Positions 3,769 through 15,159 of a stretch of 24,068 nucleotides of DNA are shown one piece after another. The position numbers and the translations under genes are program-made. The notes under the pieces were generated by a model that saw only the letters and a program-made list of their open reading frames with translations, searched no databases and had not been told where the DNA came from. The DNA comes from a virus: positions 1 to 24,068 of IMG/VR virus record IMGVR_UViG_3300042401_000197. One strand, 5' to 3'. The number at the start of each line of letters is the position of its first letter. Positions within the stretch are counted from its first letter, which is position 1.

Positions 3769-4164
3769 TTACCTAGGTGCAAGAGAAAAGTCGTGTAAAC
3801 TTGTAGCTAATTTTTTACACTCGACCATTATACCGTTTAACTTATTCTTAAATTCGATAGCTTTCTTTTCTTTACCTTTAAAAGCAGGTAATTTTGCAGC
3901 ATCCCGTGCTTTGTTTCTGAGATCTTGGGCGGTTAAGAATAAAGAAGCTAATTCTCTTACTGCATCTTGCAAAGGAAACGGTAACTCTTGTGGTTGCATC
4001 TGTTGTCCGTTACGGCTCTTAAGATCGCTAATCTTGTTTAGAGTGGGTACACTATCTTTGCTAAACTCATACGCAGATACTGTTTCAGGGGTCTGGGTAC
4101 CACTGCCCTGTCCAGTGTAATAGGACGCTTCGTCTAGTAACTTTTTAGTTTTTCTTGTTTTCAC
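3769..4164 (-). CDS. Unknown basic helical protein (~131 aa)
   Basis: I do not recognise this protein. The frame opens with non-ATG codons only. A GTG at 4164 (VKTRKTKKLLDEASYY) is preferred here, and a TTG at 4173 would add three residues; both overlap the preceding zinc-ribbon gene. The N-terminus is strongly basic. A Gln/Pro-rich linker (NGQQMQPQELPFPLQ) leads to a helical C-terminal half rich in Lys and Ala (DLRNKARDAAKLPAFKGKEK). There are no membrane segments. A nucleic-acid- or virion-binding role would suit the charge, but that is only a guess. Confidence 0.6.
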   Translation of the reverse strand: MKTRKTKKLLDEASYYTGQGSGTQTPETVSAYEFSKDSVPTLNKISDLKSRNGQQMQPQELPFPLQDAVRELASLFLTAQDLRNKARDAAKLPAFKGKEKKAIEFKNKLNGIMVECKKLATSLHDFSLAPR

Positions 4165-4336
4165 CCTTAACAATATTTACAGTACCGACCATGAATCTAT
4201 TAGAACATCTTGGACAAATCCAATGTGCTTCAGTTACGATGTCTTTTCCACGGTTAACCTGCATAATACGTGGATGTATAGAAGGTTGACCGCAAGTGGT
4301 GCAAGATTGTGCGCGTGGCTCTACGTTAGGCGTCAT
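4145..4336 (-). CDS. Small zinc-ribbon protein (63 aa)
   Basis: The protein is essentially one zinc ribbon: C12-x2-C15 (CTTC) and C41-x2-C44 (CPRC), separated by 25 residues that contain basic and beta-forming stretches (HPRIMQVNRGKDIV, HWICPRC). The C-terminal tail is basic (KGENKKN). Ribbons of this kind bind DNA, RNA or protein partners. The target is unknown. It follows RNase H after 9 bases, in an AT-rich gap (ATTATATATG at the start codon). It is the second small zinc-ribbon protein within 1 kb, after the membrane-bound one at 3319-3744. Confidence 0.7.
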   Translation of the reverse strand: MTPNVEPRAQSCTTCGQPSIHPRIMQVNRGKDIVTEAHWICPRCSNRFMVGTVNIVKGENKKN

Positions 4337-5293: not shown

Positions 5294-5573
5294 CGGTTGC
5301 TTTATGGTTGTATTCTGCTAAACACACATTATATATGCTCTTAGGTAGGACATCTACTGGATCCAAAAGTTTATTAGCAATACCCCAAACAAATTCTTTT
5401 TTAGGTATTTCCCGTACAAATTTATCAGGTAAAGAAAAGCAAACGATAGTGTCAGTGTTCTCTTTAACCTGTACCAACCATTCTCCCTTGTATCGGCCTT
5501 CTAATACTACGTAGATTCTTCTACGTTTAGGTAAAATAGCTAATTTTATTTTTTTAATTATCCGCGAGACCAT
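5223..5573 (-). CDS. Unknown protein (116 aa)
   Basis: I do not recognise this protein. The start chosen is the ATG at 5571-5573 (MVSRIIKKIKLAILPKRRR), which overlaps the preceding stop by 20 bp; an ATG at 5600 in the same frame would add nine residues read over that gene. The N-terminus is very basic. A strand-rich core follows (RIYVVLEGRYKGEWLVQVKENTDTIVCFSLP), suggesting a small beta barrel, and then a helical, charged tail that is read over the first 71 bases of the RNase H gene. The position next to RNase H hints at a replication accessory role, with no direct evidence. Confidence 0.65.
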   Translation of the reverse strand: MVSRIIKKIKLAILPKRRRIYVVLEGRYKGEWLVQVKENTDTIVCFSLPDKFVREIPKKEFVWGIANKLLDPVDVLPKSIYNVCLAEYNHKATDEQRNNALNRRKQHSPSDPLDSE

Positions 5574-6036
5574 ACGGATCGTTCCCGTTAGAGTTAGCAA
5601 TATTCTGACTAATCTTATACATTACTCGACGTAAACGTTCAAGTATTGCATCGTGCTCAGCAGTAGAATCAGCTGAAATCATTTCAACCGGGTTATTGTT
5701 TAAGTCGTAGCCGATCAATATGAAAGGACCCATAAACTCCTTAATAACAAAGTTTAAAGTGTCTATTTCTTTCTTCTTCTCTCTAACTACTTGGGTTTTA
5801 ATTTTAGCATACTCAAGTTGAGCATGCATTAACATATCTTGTATCTTTTTCTGCTCAGTACTAGAAATATTTATATCATTACCTGGAACAGACGGGGATT
5901 GAGGGGCTGGAGCAAAAGTACCTGGCCCGGCTGGTGCAGCTGAACTAATTGCACCAGTACTCGGTTTAATAGGGGCTACTTTTTTATTATTTGGCTTTTT
6001 TGTAGTGCCCTTAGTTATTTTAGTAATTTTGCTCAC
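5554..6036 (-). CDS. Unknown protein with Pro/Ala linker and coiled coil (160 aa)
   Basis: I do not recognise this protein. The start is a GTG at 6034-6036. The first 30 residues are basic (KITKITKGTTKKPNNKK). Residues 31-55 form a Pro/Ala/Gly-rich linker. Residues about 60-95 look like a coiled-coil helix (QKKIQDMLMHAQLEYAKIK), followed by a mixed domain with the segment FMGPFILIGYDLNNNPVEMI and a final helix. The sequence TATAAATA, the T4 late-promoter consensus, lies at 6043-6050, six bases before the GTG, so the gene may also have a late transcript. Confidence 0.65.
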   Translation of the reverse strand: MSKITKITKGTTKKPNNKKVAPIKPSTGAISSAAPAGPGTFAPAPQSPSVPGNDINISSTEQKKIQDMLMHAQLEYAKIKTQVVREKKKEIDTLNFVIKEFMGPFILIGYDLNNNPVEMISADSTAEHDAILERLRRVMYKISQNIANSNGNDPYGLADN

Positions 6037-10614: not shown

Positions 10615-11538
10615 TTATGTTTCCACGGGTGTTAATTGTTTTACAAATTCCATAAATGTTTCAGTTATCTTGCCACCTGCTGCATATTCATGGCCGCCTC
10701 CCTCACAAAGCTTAGCTGCTAGTTTTGACATATCTACTGTACATTCTTTTTTCTTTCTAAACGAAACATGAGAGTTATTAGCATTAACAAAGAACACGAT
10801 ATCGGAATTATACGTCTTTAATAAATGATCGCAAACATCATTAACATACTTGGCCCCAGTGGTGCCAGTTACAACAAGTTCTTGTTTGCTAATACTCACT
10901 TTGCCTGAGTACACTTGCAAATTCTCAATTGTAAGGTCTCTTCCGGTCTTAAACTCTTTCACGATATTCTTTTCAAATTGATTGAGACCGTCAAAGCCAT
11001 TATAGAATCTTTCAACAAATTTATGGGTACGGCCTTTTTCTAAAGTGCGTTGAGTGTTAGAGAACGCGCAATTTAAATCATACGTCTCTTCCAATTTAAA
11101 TTGATAGCTATCATAATCATTAGCTAGAGCAACAAGATATTTCTGCTTATCAGATAAATCAGATAGGTATTTTTTATCCTTAAATGTCTTATATATGAGC
11201 TTAGCACAGGAAGGAGCTTCTATAATTGTTATGTTTGCTCTTTTATACTTGTCCTTGACGTTAACATGGGTCAAGTGGTGATCAATTATAATTGCTTTTG
11301 GGTGATCAATCAAGTCTACACAATTACCTGTATCCAAATCTAAAAAAACAACATTATCGTAGTTATCAAAGCTATCCTCTTCGAGCCATTTTAAAAATTC
11401 TTTTCTAAAATTACTAACCGTTACCGGGGTAAATTTTATATCTCCGAGCTTAACTTTTAAAGCCCAATGCACGAGAAGTAGACTAGCGGCGCCGTCTAAA
11501 TCAACATCAGTAAAAACGTGTATGTTTTTGGTAATCAC
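10615..11538 (-). CDS. DHH/DHHA1-family phosphoesterase (RecJ/NrnA-like)
   Basis: A 307-aa protein of the DHH superfamily. Metal-binding motifs appear in order: TDVDLDGAAS (10-19), FLDLDTGN, IIIDHHLTH (the DHH motif), and NDYDSY. The C-terminal DHHA1 domain shows ISKQELVVTG and the Gly-rich substrate motif CEGGGHEYAAGGKI. The family contains 5'-3' ssDNA exonucleases (RecJ) and nanoRNases or small-nucleotide phosphodiesterases (NrnA). The short length and DHH-DHHA1 layout fit NrnA-type enzymes better than RecJ, which has an added OB domain. Its place between helicase and loader genes suggests DNA processing, but degradation of oligonucleotides or cyclic dinucleotides is possible. The start is a GTG at 11536-11538. 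Confidence 0.88.
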   Translation of the reverse strand: MITKNIHVFTDVDLDGAASLLLVHWALKVKLGDIKFTPVTVSNFRKEFLKWLEEDSFDNYDNVVFLDLDTGNCVDLIDHPKAIIIDHHLTHVNVKDKYKRANITIIEAPSCAKLIYKTFKDKKYLSDLSDKQKYLVALANDYDSYQFKLEETYDLNCAFSNTQRTLEKGRTHKFVERFYNGFDGLNQFEKNIVKEFKTGRDLTIENLQVYSGKVSISKQELVVTGTTGAKYVNDVCDHLLKTYNSDIVFFVNANNSHVSFRKKKECTVDMSKLAAKLCEGGGHEYAAGGKITETFMEFVKQLTPVET

Positions 11539-11552
11539 AAAGGTTATTTAAC

Positions 11553-12926
11553 CTATTTGGTAATGTTTTCAAGCTTTCTCTCTAAATTAGACATTTCATC
11601 TCCATCCTTACTAGAATTATTAGCTAATCCGATATAATCCTTTTCCTCAGAAAGAGAAAGAGTGGCATAGTCTAGTCTCATAGCAGTAGCGCCGTGTTTA
11701 GGTCCAATACGGTTCTTAATGCCACCTACCTTAATAATGCCGAGCTCCTGATCTCCTTCTTCTTGCTGAAGTGACCAAATCACGTCAGCAGTCATTGCAA
11801 CACCAAGAGATTCGGATACAGTATCGAGACTTGGATTCTCCATACCTTCCCGGTTAGTTTGAATAGCACTTACTATAGGGCACTCAAAGAAGTAAGACAT
11901 AGCACGAAGTTCTTCAGCAACTGCCTTACCTTGCTCGTAAGAGTTATCTCCACTACTAGACTTAACTAGACCTAGGTAGTCTATAATGATTATCCCTGGT
12001 TTAATCCCGTTTTTAATGAGCATCTCGAGATAAGCTTTAATACCACCTACCGTAATGCTTTTAGGTGGGAACTCTTTAACTATTAAGCGACGTTTCTTTT
12101 GTTCTGCTACGTCTTTGAAGTATATCTCTAAAGCAGCAGTTTGATCATGTAACTCTTTAACTGGAATCTTAGACACATGACTACTGAGACGTCTTGCATA
12201 CATCATCTCAGACATTTCAAGGGATATAAGAACAGCAGTCTCTCCATCAGGTAAACTATTAGCCACATTAGCAGCAATATTACCTAAGAAAATAGACTTA
12301 CCTACGTTAGTGGGTCCAAGGAACAAATAAAGAGCTTTACCTTTCTTATAAAGACCACCACCGATCTTAGAGTCAATAAATCCCCACCCAGTAGGAATAA
12401 CTTCAGTACTTGAACTCAAGTCATCGATAACTTTTTGATATTCACCGTAAAGATCTAAACCGATTTCACTAACAAGCTTAATGTTACAAGCGGTTTCAAA
12501 CATTTGCAGGAACTTACCATAGTCTGCTCTATCATTAGTGAAATCGTCTACAATCTTGAGAACAGTATTGTATACAGTCTTTTCTTTAAAAAACGTCTCG
12601 GTATTCTGAATAAGATCTTCAAGATTACCATTTAGATCAATCTGCTTGTAATTAGTAAGAGTCTCTTTAATGAGTTTAACGTCTTCCTCTTTCTTGAGGT
12701 AAGTCTTAATCTCTGTAATGGTAGGTACTGACTTTCTCTTAAGATAAAAGTCCTTTACGATACCCACAACTAGCTTGTTACCAGGCTGTTTAAAATTATC
12801 TGGCTTTAAATGCTCAATAACAAGAGATGCGTAATACGCATTAGTTAGCGCATTACATGCGATTACATTCTCAAAGTACTCTGTATTGACCTGAAGCTTA
12901 TTCTTCACTTCTTTATTATAACTCAT
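11553..12926 (-). CDS. 41: Replicative DNA helicase (gp41, DnaB-type)
   Basis: A 457-aa hexameric 5'-3' helicase of the T4 gp41 type (T4 gp41 is 475 aa). The N-terminal 170 residues form the helical domain. The RecA-like motor begins with TGWGFIDSKIGGGLYKKG and Walker A GPTNVGKS (204-211), then SLEMSEMMYARRL (motif with the catalytic Glu), Walker B GIIIIDYLGLV followed by SSSGDNSYEQ, the Q motif IVSAIQTNREGM and the arginine-finger region GIIKVGGIKNRIG. It unwinds the lagging-strand template and supports primase, which is not in the window. A strong terminator ends within a few bases of its ATG, so it is read by read-through or from a promoter inside the preceding gene. Confidence 0.95.
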   Translation of the reverse strand: MSYNKEVKNKLQVNTEYFENVIACNALTNAYYASLVIEHLKPDNFKQPGNKLVVGIVKDFYLKRKSVPTITEIKTYLKKEEDVKLIKETLTNYKQIDLNGNLEDLIQNTETFFKEKTVYNTVLKIVDDFTNDRADYGKFLQMFETACNIKLVSEIGLDLYGEYQKVIDDLSSSTEVIPTGWGFIDSKIGGGLYKKGKALYLFLGPTNVGKSIFLGNIAANVANSLPDGETAVLISLEMSEMMYARRLSSHVSKIPVKELHDQTAALEIYFKDVAEQKKRRLIVKEFPPKSITVGGIKAYLEMLIKNGIKPGIIIIDYLGLVKSSSGDNSYEQGKAVAEELRAMSYFFECPIVSAIQTNREGMENPSLDTVSESLGVAMTADVIWSLQQEEGDQELGIIKVGGIKNRIGPKHGATAMRLDYATLSLSEEKDYIGLANNSSKDGDEMSNLERKLENITK

Positions 12927-12961
12927 AAAATAAAAAAAGCTAAGGTTGCCCTTAGCTTTTT
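12927..12961 (-). terminator. Strong intrinsic terminator behind the propeller gene
   Basis: On the minus strand the RNA folds as AAAAAGCUAAGG-GCAA-CCUUAGCUUUUU: a 12-bp perfect stem closed by a GCAA (GNRA) tetraloop and followed by a U-rich tract (UUUUUUUAUUUU). Because the stem is flanked by A on one side and U on the other, it could also work on the plus strand. It begins 23 bases after the propeller stop codon and isolates that gene from the helicase gene. Confidence 0.9.
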
Positions 12962-12984
12962 ATTAATAATTTTTTTATTAATTG

Positions 12985-13980
12985 TTACGTAATGCGAAGA
13001 ACATAACCATGAATGGTCGGGTCATCTTTAGTATTAAATACCCCGATGATCCAGTTCTGCCAAACGCTGTCGCTAGTGGTTAAAAGACTGTCTGGATAAG
13101 TCCAGCGTGTGAACTTACCTTTCTTGAACTCACCTTTCTTGTTACGCTTTACAAGAGTACGAGCACCAAAGCCAGTGCCCTCTGGGTTAACAACCCAAGC
13201 TGATAAAGCGTAACCGTCTTTACCGTAAGGAGTAATACCGGAGAAGTGGTAGAAGATACTCTTTACCGGCTGATCATCGTATTCATAGGATGTCCAGTTA
13301 GTAAGTTCTTCAGTTTCACTATCCCAATCAACGATCAAGCCTTTCGCAATACCGGCTGGAATATTCTGGTCTCCGATTTCACTGTAGCCACCAACAATAG
13401 TATAGCTAGTACCACCGTTATGCCAAATACCATATGCAGTAATGCTAACAGCATCGTCATACACCATTTCTTGATATTTACCGGTAGCGATATTATAGAT
13501 AAACGCTCTACCGCTATAGATCTTAGTGTCAAAGTTACCGACAACGATACCACCATGTACGCTATGAGCAATAACATTGAGTACTTCATCAGTTTCTCCT
13601 GCAACAAGGGAGCTTGGATCTAAACGAAGCCAGTTACCCTTTCCATTGAGATCGCCTTGGTAAAAGCAACCTAGATCAAGACCGCCAGTAGCGTCAGTCT
13701 TGTAACTGCCAACAGCTTGAACTAATCCGTCGCCAAGATCGTCTACACTATAAAGCGCGGTTGAAGAACCGCCAGGGAAGTTAAAAAGGTGCCATGAACC
13801 AATATTTTTAGCTAATGGGCCTTTATAGATCATACCTTGAGTACCACCACTAGCAGGTTTAAATACCCCGGTAATAAATGCTTCGTTAACTGATTTAGTT
13901 ACTGGACGAATGCCTGTCAAAAAGGTACCGTCAGCAGTACCTGCGCCTGTATAATTGAATTCTTGGAATTTGTTTGCCAT
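12985..13980 (-). CDS. Beta-propeller-like protein of unknown function
   Basis: A 331-aa protein built from about five or six repeats of 45-55 residues. Each repeat has a small-residue strand such as GMIYKGPL, GCFYQGDL, GRAFIYN or GLIVDWD, a W- or Y-containing turn (IGSWHLFNFP, KGNWLRLDP, GKYQEMVYD, LTNWTSYEY), and a strand ending in VGxY or similar (VQAVGSYK, GGIVVGNF, YTIVGGYS). This suggests a beta propeller related to HAF-type repeats. There is no signal peptide, no membrane segment and no cysteine-rich motif. It lies between uvsX and gene 41, where T4 has the unrelated head-assembly gene 40, and has its own strong terminator. Gly, Ser and Thr content resembles virion proteins more than replication enzymes. 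A structural or host-binding role is possible but unproven. Confidence 0.75.
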   Translation of the reverse strand: MANKFQEFNYTGAGTADGTFLTGIRPVTKSVNEAFITGVFKPASGGTQGMIYKGPLAKNIGSWHLFNFPGGSSTALYSVDDLGDGLVQAVGSYKTDATGGLDLGCFYQGDLNGKGNWLRLDPSSLVAGETDEVLNVIAHSVHGGIVVGNFDTKIYSGRAFIYNIATGKYQEMVYDDAVSITAYGIWHNGGTSYTIVGGYSEIGDQNIPAGIAKGLIVDWDSETEELTNWTSYEYDDQPVKSIFYHFSGITPYGKDGYALSAWVVNPEGTGFGARTLVKRNKKGEFKKGKFTRWTYPDSLLTTSDSVWQNWIIGVFNTKDDPTIHGYVLRIT

Positions 13981-13995
13981 AATTTTATATTTACT

Positions 13996-15159
13996 TTAGT
14001 TTTTTTCTTTATCCTCTATTTCAGAGTCTTCGATTAGTTTATCGATAGCCTCTGCTACTGCCCCGCCGGAGCTACCATAGCAAACCTTCTCTTTAAGTGT
14101 TTGCTCGAGAAGTGGTAATGCTTTCTTTTCCCAGAACTCGGTGTCATTCTCCCAGCTCTTCTTATAACCGATTTTTTCAGTACCGAGGAAATAAGATTTG
14201 TCCCCGGTTATTACTCCCATTGCGATTGCCATATCGGCAAGACCTGCGTAACGACTCAAGCCTGTGCGAAAGTTATTATATAACTCTGCTTTAAGGAATG
14301 ACGGTACAAAGCGGTTTTTAACTGTCATTGCTGACAAGGTAACACCACTCACATTATGAGCTACTCCGATTGATTCTTCGTTTTCGTTCTTATCTATCTT
14401 TTCGTTACGAGTAGCAAGCTGAACAAGTAAAGAAGCGAGATAAACCGGGCCTGAACCACCTGACTGCTTCTTAACCAATTCTGGATAAAGAGAAGCAGGG
14501 TTATCATAGATATGATTAGTAAACAGGATCGGTACCCGAGCTTTAGCAGCCTTAAACGTAAGAGCGCGCATCATGGACTTCATAGCTTTCGCTTTAGTGC
14601 CCATATCAGCCGCATCTTTACCTTCAGTGACGTCTCGGAGCTCCTTAGCGCTAGCTAAGTTACCTAGACTATCAATAGCAACGATTACTTTGAGGTTCGG
14701 ATCATTCGCTGCAATAATCTTATCGAGAAACGTAGCAATCTGATTGCGGCAGTCTTCCACGGTCTCAACAGGATAATATTTGAGCCTCTTAGGATCAATA
14801 CCAACACCTTCAGCGGATTGACGGTCGACCGCAGCTTCGGTATCCCAAATAGCCGCAAAATAGCCTTTCTTTTGCGCATTGGCGACGATCTTGTTAACAA
14901 TAAGTGTTTTTCCAGCGCCCGAAGGCCCGGTGAAGCCAGTAATGCGGCCAACAGGAATGCCTTTATAAAGGGATCCAGAGAAGATAGCATTAAGAGCATA
15001 CGAACCAGTATCAATCCAGTCTCCTACAATAGAGAGCGAGTTTTCATCTGAAAGCAGTGATGCATCTGCATTAAGTGCATCTACTGCATCAAATATATCT
15101 TTGAGAGACGAAGCTTTCGTCTCGGTATTGTTATTACCAGTGGAAGGTTTACGAGCCAT
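13996..15159 (-). CDS. uvsX: RecA-like recombinase UvsX
   Basis: A 387-aa recombinase (T4 UvsX is about 390 aa) that forms filaments on ssDNA and performs strand exchange for recombination-dependent replication. The core begins DWIDTGSYALNAIFSGSLYKGIPVG; Walker A is GPSGAGKT (78-85); WDTEAAVD (105-112) follows; Walker B is VIVAIDSLG (158-166). Later come the L2-like and substrate segments PILFTNHIYDNPASLYPELVKKQSGG. The C-terminus is acidic (EDSEIEDKEKN), as expected for a regulatory tail. The ATG at 15159 lies three bases after the preceding stop. gp32 and gp59, its usual partners, are in the same window, and UvsY was not recognised. Confidence 0.95.
   Translation of the reverse strand: MARKPSTGNNNTETKASSLKDIFDAVDALNADASLLSDENSLSIVGDWIDTGSYALNAIFSGSLYKGIPVGRITGFTGPSGAGKTLIVNKIVANAQKKGYFAAIWDTEAAVDRQSAEGVGIDPKRLKYYPVETVEDCRNQIATFLDKIIAANDPNLKVIVAIDSLGNLASAKELRDVTEGKDAADMGTKAKAMKSMMRALTFKAAKARVPILFTNHIYDNPASLYPELVKKQSGGSGPVYLASLLVQLATRNEKIDKNENEESIGVAHNVSGVTLSAMTVKNRFVPSFLKAELYNNFRTGLSRYAGLADMAIAMGVITGDKSYFLGTEKIGYKKSWENDTEFWEKKALPLLEQTLKEKVCYGSSGGAVAEAIDKLIEDSEIEDKEKN

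Follow-up and report, generated by a model that had tools for sequence, protein, structure and literature searches.

A predicted beta-propeller gene inserted between uvsX and an ancestral terminator in the replication module of uncultured T4-like phages

In our study, a stretch of viral DNA of 24,068 nucleotides (IMG/VR record IMGVR_UViG_3300042401_000197, positions 1 to 24,068; the window) was analysed, and a gene for a predicted beta-propeller protein of 331 amino acids was found to be inserted between the recombinase gene uvsX and the helicase gene 41. We consider it somewhat more probable than any other account taken together (roughly 0.55) that this gene is a moron-like, late-expressed accessory cassette encoding a dispensable protein which is carried on the virion or assembled with it, both timing and function being deduced from sequence features. 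The window comes from an uncultured T4-like phage and comprises part of its replication module, in which uvsX, the gene 41-type helicase, a DHH phosphoesterase and the DNA polymerase are all encoded on the minus strand. Among GenBank phages, the best matches to uvsX, polymerase and helicase reach only about 28-36% identity, and hence the phage has no close isolate. From their gene content, the phages of this group look like lytic T4-types and not like prophages. The features of the locus are given below from upstream to downstream.

13996..15159, minus strand: uvsX-like recombinase gene, upstream neighbour of the insertion (PHROG 97 UvsX-like, E 4e-64; Pfam RecA, E 5e-20)
13986..13994, minus strand: late-promoter-like GTAAATATA immediately following the stop codon of uvsX; its TAAATA core lies at -13 relative to the ATG of the propeller gene (score 8.56, null p 0.012)
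12985..13980, minus strand: inserted gene, 331 aa, predicted beta-propeller (ORF; AlphaFold2 pLDDT 62; Foldseek propeller matches; dN/dS)
12934..12961, minus strand: ancestral rho-independent terminator hairpin, equal to the uvsX terminator of the empty sites (fold; 42/42 junctions; single copy)
12915..12920, minus strand: TATAAT, candidate -10 element of gene 41, placed exactly 6 nt ahead of its conserved start GTG at 12908-12906
11553..12926, minus strand: gene 41-type DnaB-like helicase, downstream neighbour of the insertion (PHROG 19, E 5e-72)

The open reading frame at 12985-13980, which a preliminary description of this DNA had reported between uvsX and gene 41, is real, and a gap of 15 nt without any terminator separates it from uvsX. 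The same gene was found in just three other IMG/VR contigs, always at the uvsX-gene 41 junction. Of the 67 phages in which gene 41 is complete (38 distinct helicases, window included), uvsX and gene 41 are adjacent and the propeller gene is absent in 64; the carriers, counting the window, make up 3/67 full-length junctions. The gene thus lies, as a moron does, between two genes which are adjacent in related phages. At the empty sites, 36-89 bp separate the uvsX stop from gene 41. The gene had been thought to stand in the place of T4 gene 40, and this replacement was rejected: close relatives have no gene at all between uvsX and gene 41, and because the junction is empty in them this phage group had no gene 40 that could be replaced. 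That the gene is an insertion was borne out by its presence in a small minority of the junctions. The opposite case, a universal member of the operon with no independent transcript, fails because so few relatives carry the gene. In relatives further removed, whose uvsX is no more than 54% identical, a distance of 1.4-5.3 kb often separates uvsX from gene 41, and the propeller profile found no match in the DNA between them. Nor was a propeller homologue present elsewhere in the relatives' genomes, as judged from 20 additional records with lengths of up to 140 kb.

The terminator hairpin AAAAAGCTAAGG-GCAA-CCTTAGCTTTTT (12961-12934, minus strand) has 12 pairs and a GCAA loop of the GNRA type. Its folding energy is -15.7 kcal/mol (z = -4.6 in comparison to shuffled sequences), and it ranks first among the terminator-like sites of the window, so that the 12-bp stem, GNRA-loop terminator described earlier between the ORF and gene 41 is confirmed. 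GCTAAGG-NNNN-CCTTAGC or a close variant was found upstream of gene 41 in 42/42 distinct junctions, empty or occupied, with 26 GCAA loops, 14 GAAA, 1 TTTC and 1 variant loop region, and at the empty sites it follows directly after uvsX. Its occurrence at every one of the 42 distinct junctions makes the terminator older than the insertion. It is thus ancestral and not, as had been supposed, the propeller gene's own stop signal. The propeller gene is thus flanked by the stop codon of uvsX on one side and by the former uvsX terminator on the other, and a terminator of its own, as sought in a moron, was not found. A hairpin brought in as part of the insert was rejected on account of the empty junctions, and a repeated mobile element on account of copy number, which is at most one per genome in the records searched. 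Rfam gave no match. As separate observations, the stem is conserved nearly letter for letter, with hardly any compensatory change, in relatives with strongly diverged synonymous sites, and in the carrier L001 (L001:1590-1607) the loop reads TTTC, which is GAAA in reverse complement and looks like the result of a flipped hairpin. Stem conservation and inverted loop together suggest either a sequence constraint beyond pairing or a flipping palindrome.

Directly after the terminator, TATAAT-N6-RTG-AAR is present in 34/42 distinct junctions. The helicases of the relatives align from residue 7-8 of the gene 41 ORF, and the conserved start of gene 41 is probably the GTG at 12908 and not the listed ATG at 12926. 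The TATAAT in front of this GTG points to a separate promoter for gene 41 and to an mRNA without a leader.

The distribution of the propeller gene is sparse and not clade-like, and in the helicase tree the carriers fall into two separate well-supported groups, which forces at least two changes. Between the window and carrier L002, uvsX is 92.6% identical at the nucleotide level whereas the propeller gene is only 81.3% identical; between L001 and L002, on the other hand, the flanks are 74% identical and the propeller gene 90%. As the alleles do not follow their flanks, the gene has moved between lineages, and this would most simply be homologous exchange at the same site. Further, the alleles have a dS of 0.5-1.1 and a dN/dS of 0.035-0.08; by these rates the gene is shown to be under strong purifying selection with no sign of diversification. 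Its GC content is 43.0% in comparison to 43.7% for uvsX, its codon fit is mid-range among 18 genes and its GC3 is ordinary. A base composition unlike that of the neighbours, as sought in a moron, was thus not observed, and recent foreign DNA was rejected on composition. Of the recent moron-like insertion put forward earlier, the insertion stands (3/67 junctions) but the recent date does not: ordinary codon usage and GC3, together with dS of 0.5-1.1 and dN/dS of about 0.04-0.08, give no indication of a recent foreign acquisition. By these measures the gene is a selected, long-resident phage gene and not recent host DNA.

No relative of the 331-aa ORF could be detected in Pfam, NCBIfam, PHROGs, PDB sequences, GenBank phages, plasmids or GTDB genomes, and its product represents an orphan protein family. 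The scans of bacterial genomes and plasmids, which gave no close relative, use short peptide matches that distant relatives could escape. The earlier statement that the protein is unrelated to gp40 holds at profile level, as no PHROG, Pfam or NCBIfam profile of the gp40 family, or of any other family, matched it. Its virion-like composition was also upheld, Gly+Ser+Thr reaching 29%, the highest among the 18 window proteins compared. No signal peptide or membrane segment was evident when the sequence was inspected by eye, and the whole protein appears to be a single propeller without a further domain; no virion-attachment domain could be recognised.

The fold was predicted by AlphaFold2 from four near-identical sequences as an all-beta structure of four-strand units with a mean pLDDT of 62; a second allele gave a similar strand order at a pLDDT of only 43. 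The structure prediction for blade number, which had been proposed earlier, gives five four-strand units (residues ~19-66, 73-120, 133-172, 177-238 and 241-294) followed by C-terminal strands. There are probably six blades in all, the sixth being deduced and closed by the N-terminal strand (residues ~4-10). The best Foldseek matches are propellers, with TM at most ~0.5; the top PDB fold match is the enzyme CylK (TM 0.48, sequence identity 11%), and the best viral match, a structural protein of cyanophage S-ShM2, is one of fold only. Homology to the fold-matched cyanophage structural proteins was rejected, as they show no sequence relation to the propeller protein where tested. A repeat at sequence level is weak, one repeat pair scoring 44 against 37 for the best of 20 shuffles and the blade-versus-blade sum being near chance (z ~1.2). 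Of the beta-propeller-like repeat protein proposed before, the fold is plausible and the sequence repeat weak; a propeller fold is likely but not secured.

Whether the propeller gene has a promoter of its own was approached through a motif learned from the 35 nt upstream of ORF starts in two near-complete relatives, G005 (140 kb) and G007 (123 kb), with the window left out. The learned motif is gTAA[G/A]TATT. In these two genomes 58 copies of TAA[A/G]TA lie between -15 and -11 relative to gene starts, on the sense strand only, where ~5 are expected. It precedes 11/16 virion genes, taken as ten G007 genes with PHROG annotation (tail tube, sheath, hub, portal and similar) and their G005 orthologues, and 2/21 replication genes (Fisher p = 0.0003). 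This appears to be a new signal, lying ~13 nt upstream of mostly virion gene starts and resembling the T4 late promoter core TAAATA. It could instead be a translation signal specific to late genes; the motif stands before mainly virion genes in L170-L175 (G007) and L176-L182 (G005), in a phage group having no obvious Shine-Dalgarno sequences. G007 also carries three tryptophan-halogenase-like genes (PHROG 2928; L170:12407-14008, L174:167-1705 and L174:2120-3349) and a cluster of four tail-tube paralogues (PHROG 45) surrounding a tail sheath gene of 783 aa (L175:3043-7964).

All three complete propeller alleles have TAAATA at -13, with scores of 8.6, 8.6 and 7.8 and null p of 0.012, 0.012 and 0.020 for the window, L002 and L001, respectively; L001 has GTAAATAAA where the window has GTAAATATA. 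Neither uvsX nor gene 41 has such a motif. An independent promoter for the propeller gene is suggested by this late-promoter-like TAAATA. The T4 late-promoter consensus has been placed at -13 to -6 relative to the transcription start site (PMC2988020), and with this spacing the transcript, if the site is a promoter, would start ~2 nt before the propeller ATG and be nearly leaderless. The late promoters of T4 and cyanophages are TATAAATA and NATAAATA (PMC2984593), and a TATAAATA-like sequence, as looked for in a T4-type late gene, was found upstream of the propeller gene (GTAAATATA or GTAAATAAA at -14), the motif being enriched before virion genes. TAARTA also precedes 4/29 other window genes examined, none shown to be a virion gene, at 11-12 nt before the starts of genes 1311-1502, 4145-4336, 5554-6036 and 10615-11538. 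These four may be genes of the replication module with late or mixed expression. Because they share the pattern, the TAAATA site alone is no proof at a null p of 0.01-0.02, and the argument from it is probabilistic.

In the favoured explanation, a cassette made of the late-promoter-like leader and the propeller ORF would have entered downstream of the uvsX stop codon and in front of the terminator that uvsX already had. The late RNA polymerase would start at or just before the propeller ATG and the transcript would end at the old uvsX hairpin, so that the product would be made alongside virion proteins despite its replication-gene neighbourhood. This product may be a dispensable protein that serves for decoration or adsorption and binds through the surface of its propeller. 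Several points count against a late virion protein: the location in the replication module favours early or middle read-through from uvsX with no terminator between, the cyanophage matches are of fold only, no virion-attachment domain is recognisable and the model is of moderate confidence. The main rival, an early host-interaction protein co-transcribed with uvsX, draws on the same location and 15-nt gap. It would be an early or middle host-takeover or counter-defence factor without a promoter of its own, transcribed to the shared terminator and acting as a cytoplasmic protein-binding scaffold. Genes in an arms race, too, typically show a sparse distribution and allele exchange; however, TAAATA at -13 in every complete allele, as in the relatives' virion genes and unlike most of their replication genes, and strong purifying selection without diversification make this reading rather unlikely.

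If the leader does indicate late expression, the protein could still act outside the virion as a cytoplasmic or envelope-acting factor, for example in exclusion, lysis timing or glycan binding. The propeller fold serves enzymes and glycan binding besides structure, and the best PDB fold match is itself an enzyme; yet the CylK match is too weak for function transfer and the protein has no evident signal peptide or membrane segment, and we regard this option as less likely still. A functional analogue of T4 gp40, or another replication accessory working with UvsX or gp41, has only its position in its favour, but the propeller gene is missing from 64/67 phages in which uvsX and gene 41 are closely related, and its alleles show no covariation with the replication genes on either side, which makes such a role highly improbable. 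Building on the late virion cassette, it may tentatively be proposed, though as less probable than not, that these genes form a new family of free-standing, late-expressed phage propeller proteins decorating the virion and spread among T4-like lineages by homologous exchange at one fixed niche, the late unit being nested in an earlier-expressed one with a common terminator.

The locus indicates how the conserved replication core of T4-like phages can take up an accessory gene and remain undisturbed: the newcomer brings a late-type promoter signal and is parked before an existing terminator; in this arrangement, the uvsX stop signal would also end the new transcript. Moreover, TAA[A/G]TA beside the start codon is a testable late-promoter motif for an abundant uncultured phage group without an isolate, and could serve to tell late from non-late genes among its many unknown ones.

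In comparison to known propellers, the predicted model has four-stranded blades like those of CylK, YCF48 and the structural proteins of cyanophages S-ShM2 and S-PM2, whereas identity to these is ~10-13% with no detectable sequence homology. PeSLs are composite promoter-terminator motifs of T4-type phages proposed as gene-shuffling sites (Arbiol 2010; Comeau 2014; cited in PMC4503421). The present insertion point resembles them in having a stem-loop terminator with a promoter-like TATAAT directly behind it, but the recurrence within a genome that belongs to a PeSL, as defined in the citing text, was not seen. The hairpin is single copy in every genome searched, and within-genome shuffling between repeated copies is therefore not indicated. 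The core TAAATA stands upstream of virion genes in this group as in the TATAAATA and NATAAATA promoters of T4 and cyanophages, whereas here it is often TAAGTA and lies ~13 nt before the start codon, so that late mRNAs would be nearly leaderless. Unlike morons, the propeller gene borrows a resident terminator, has ordinary base composition and codon usage and is found in T4-type, lytic-looking phages instead of prophages; like morons and other accessory insertions, it is one gene between the adjacent genes of its relatives, apparently with its own promoter, dispensable by its distribution and mobile between phages.
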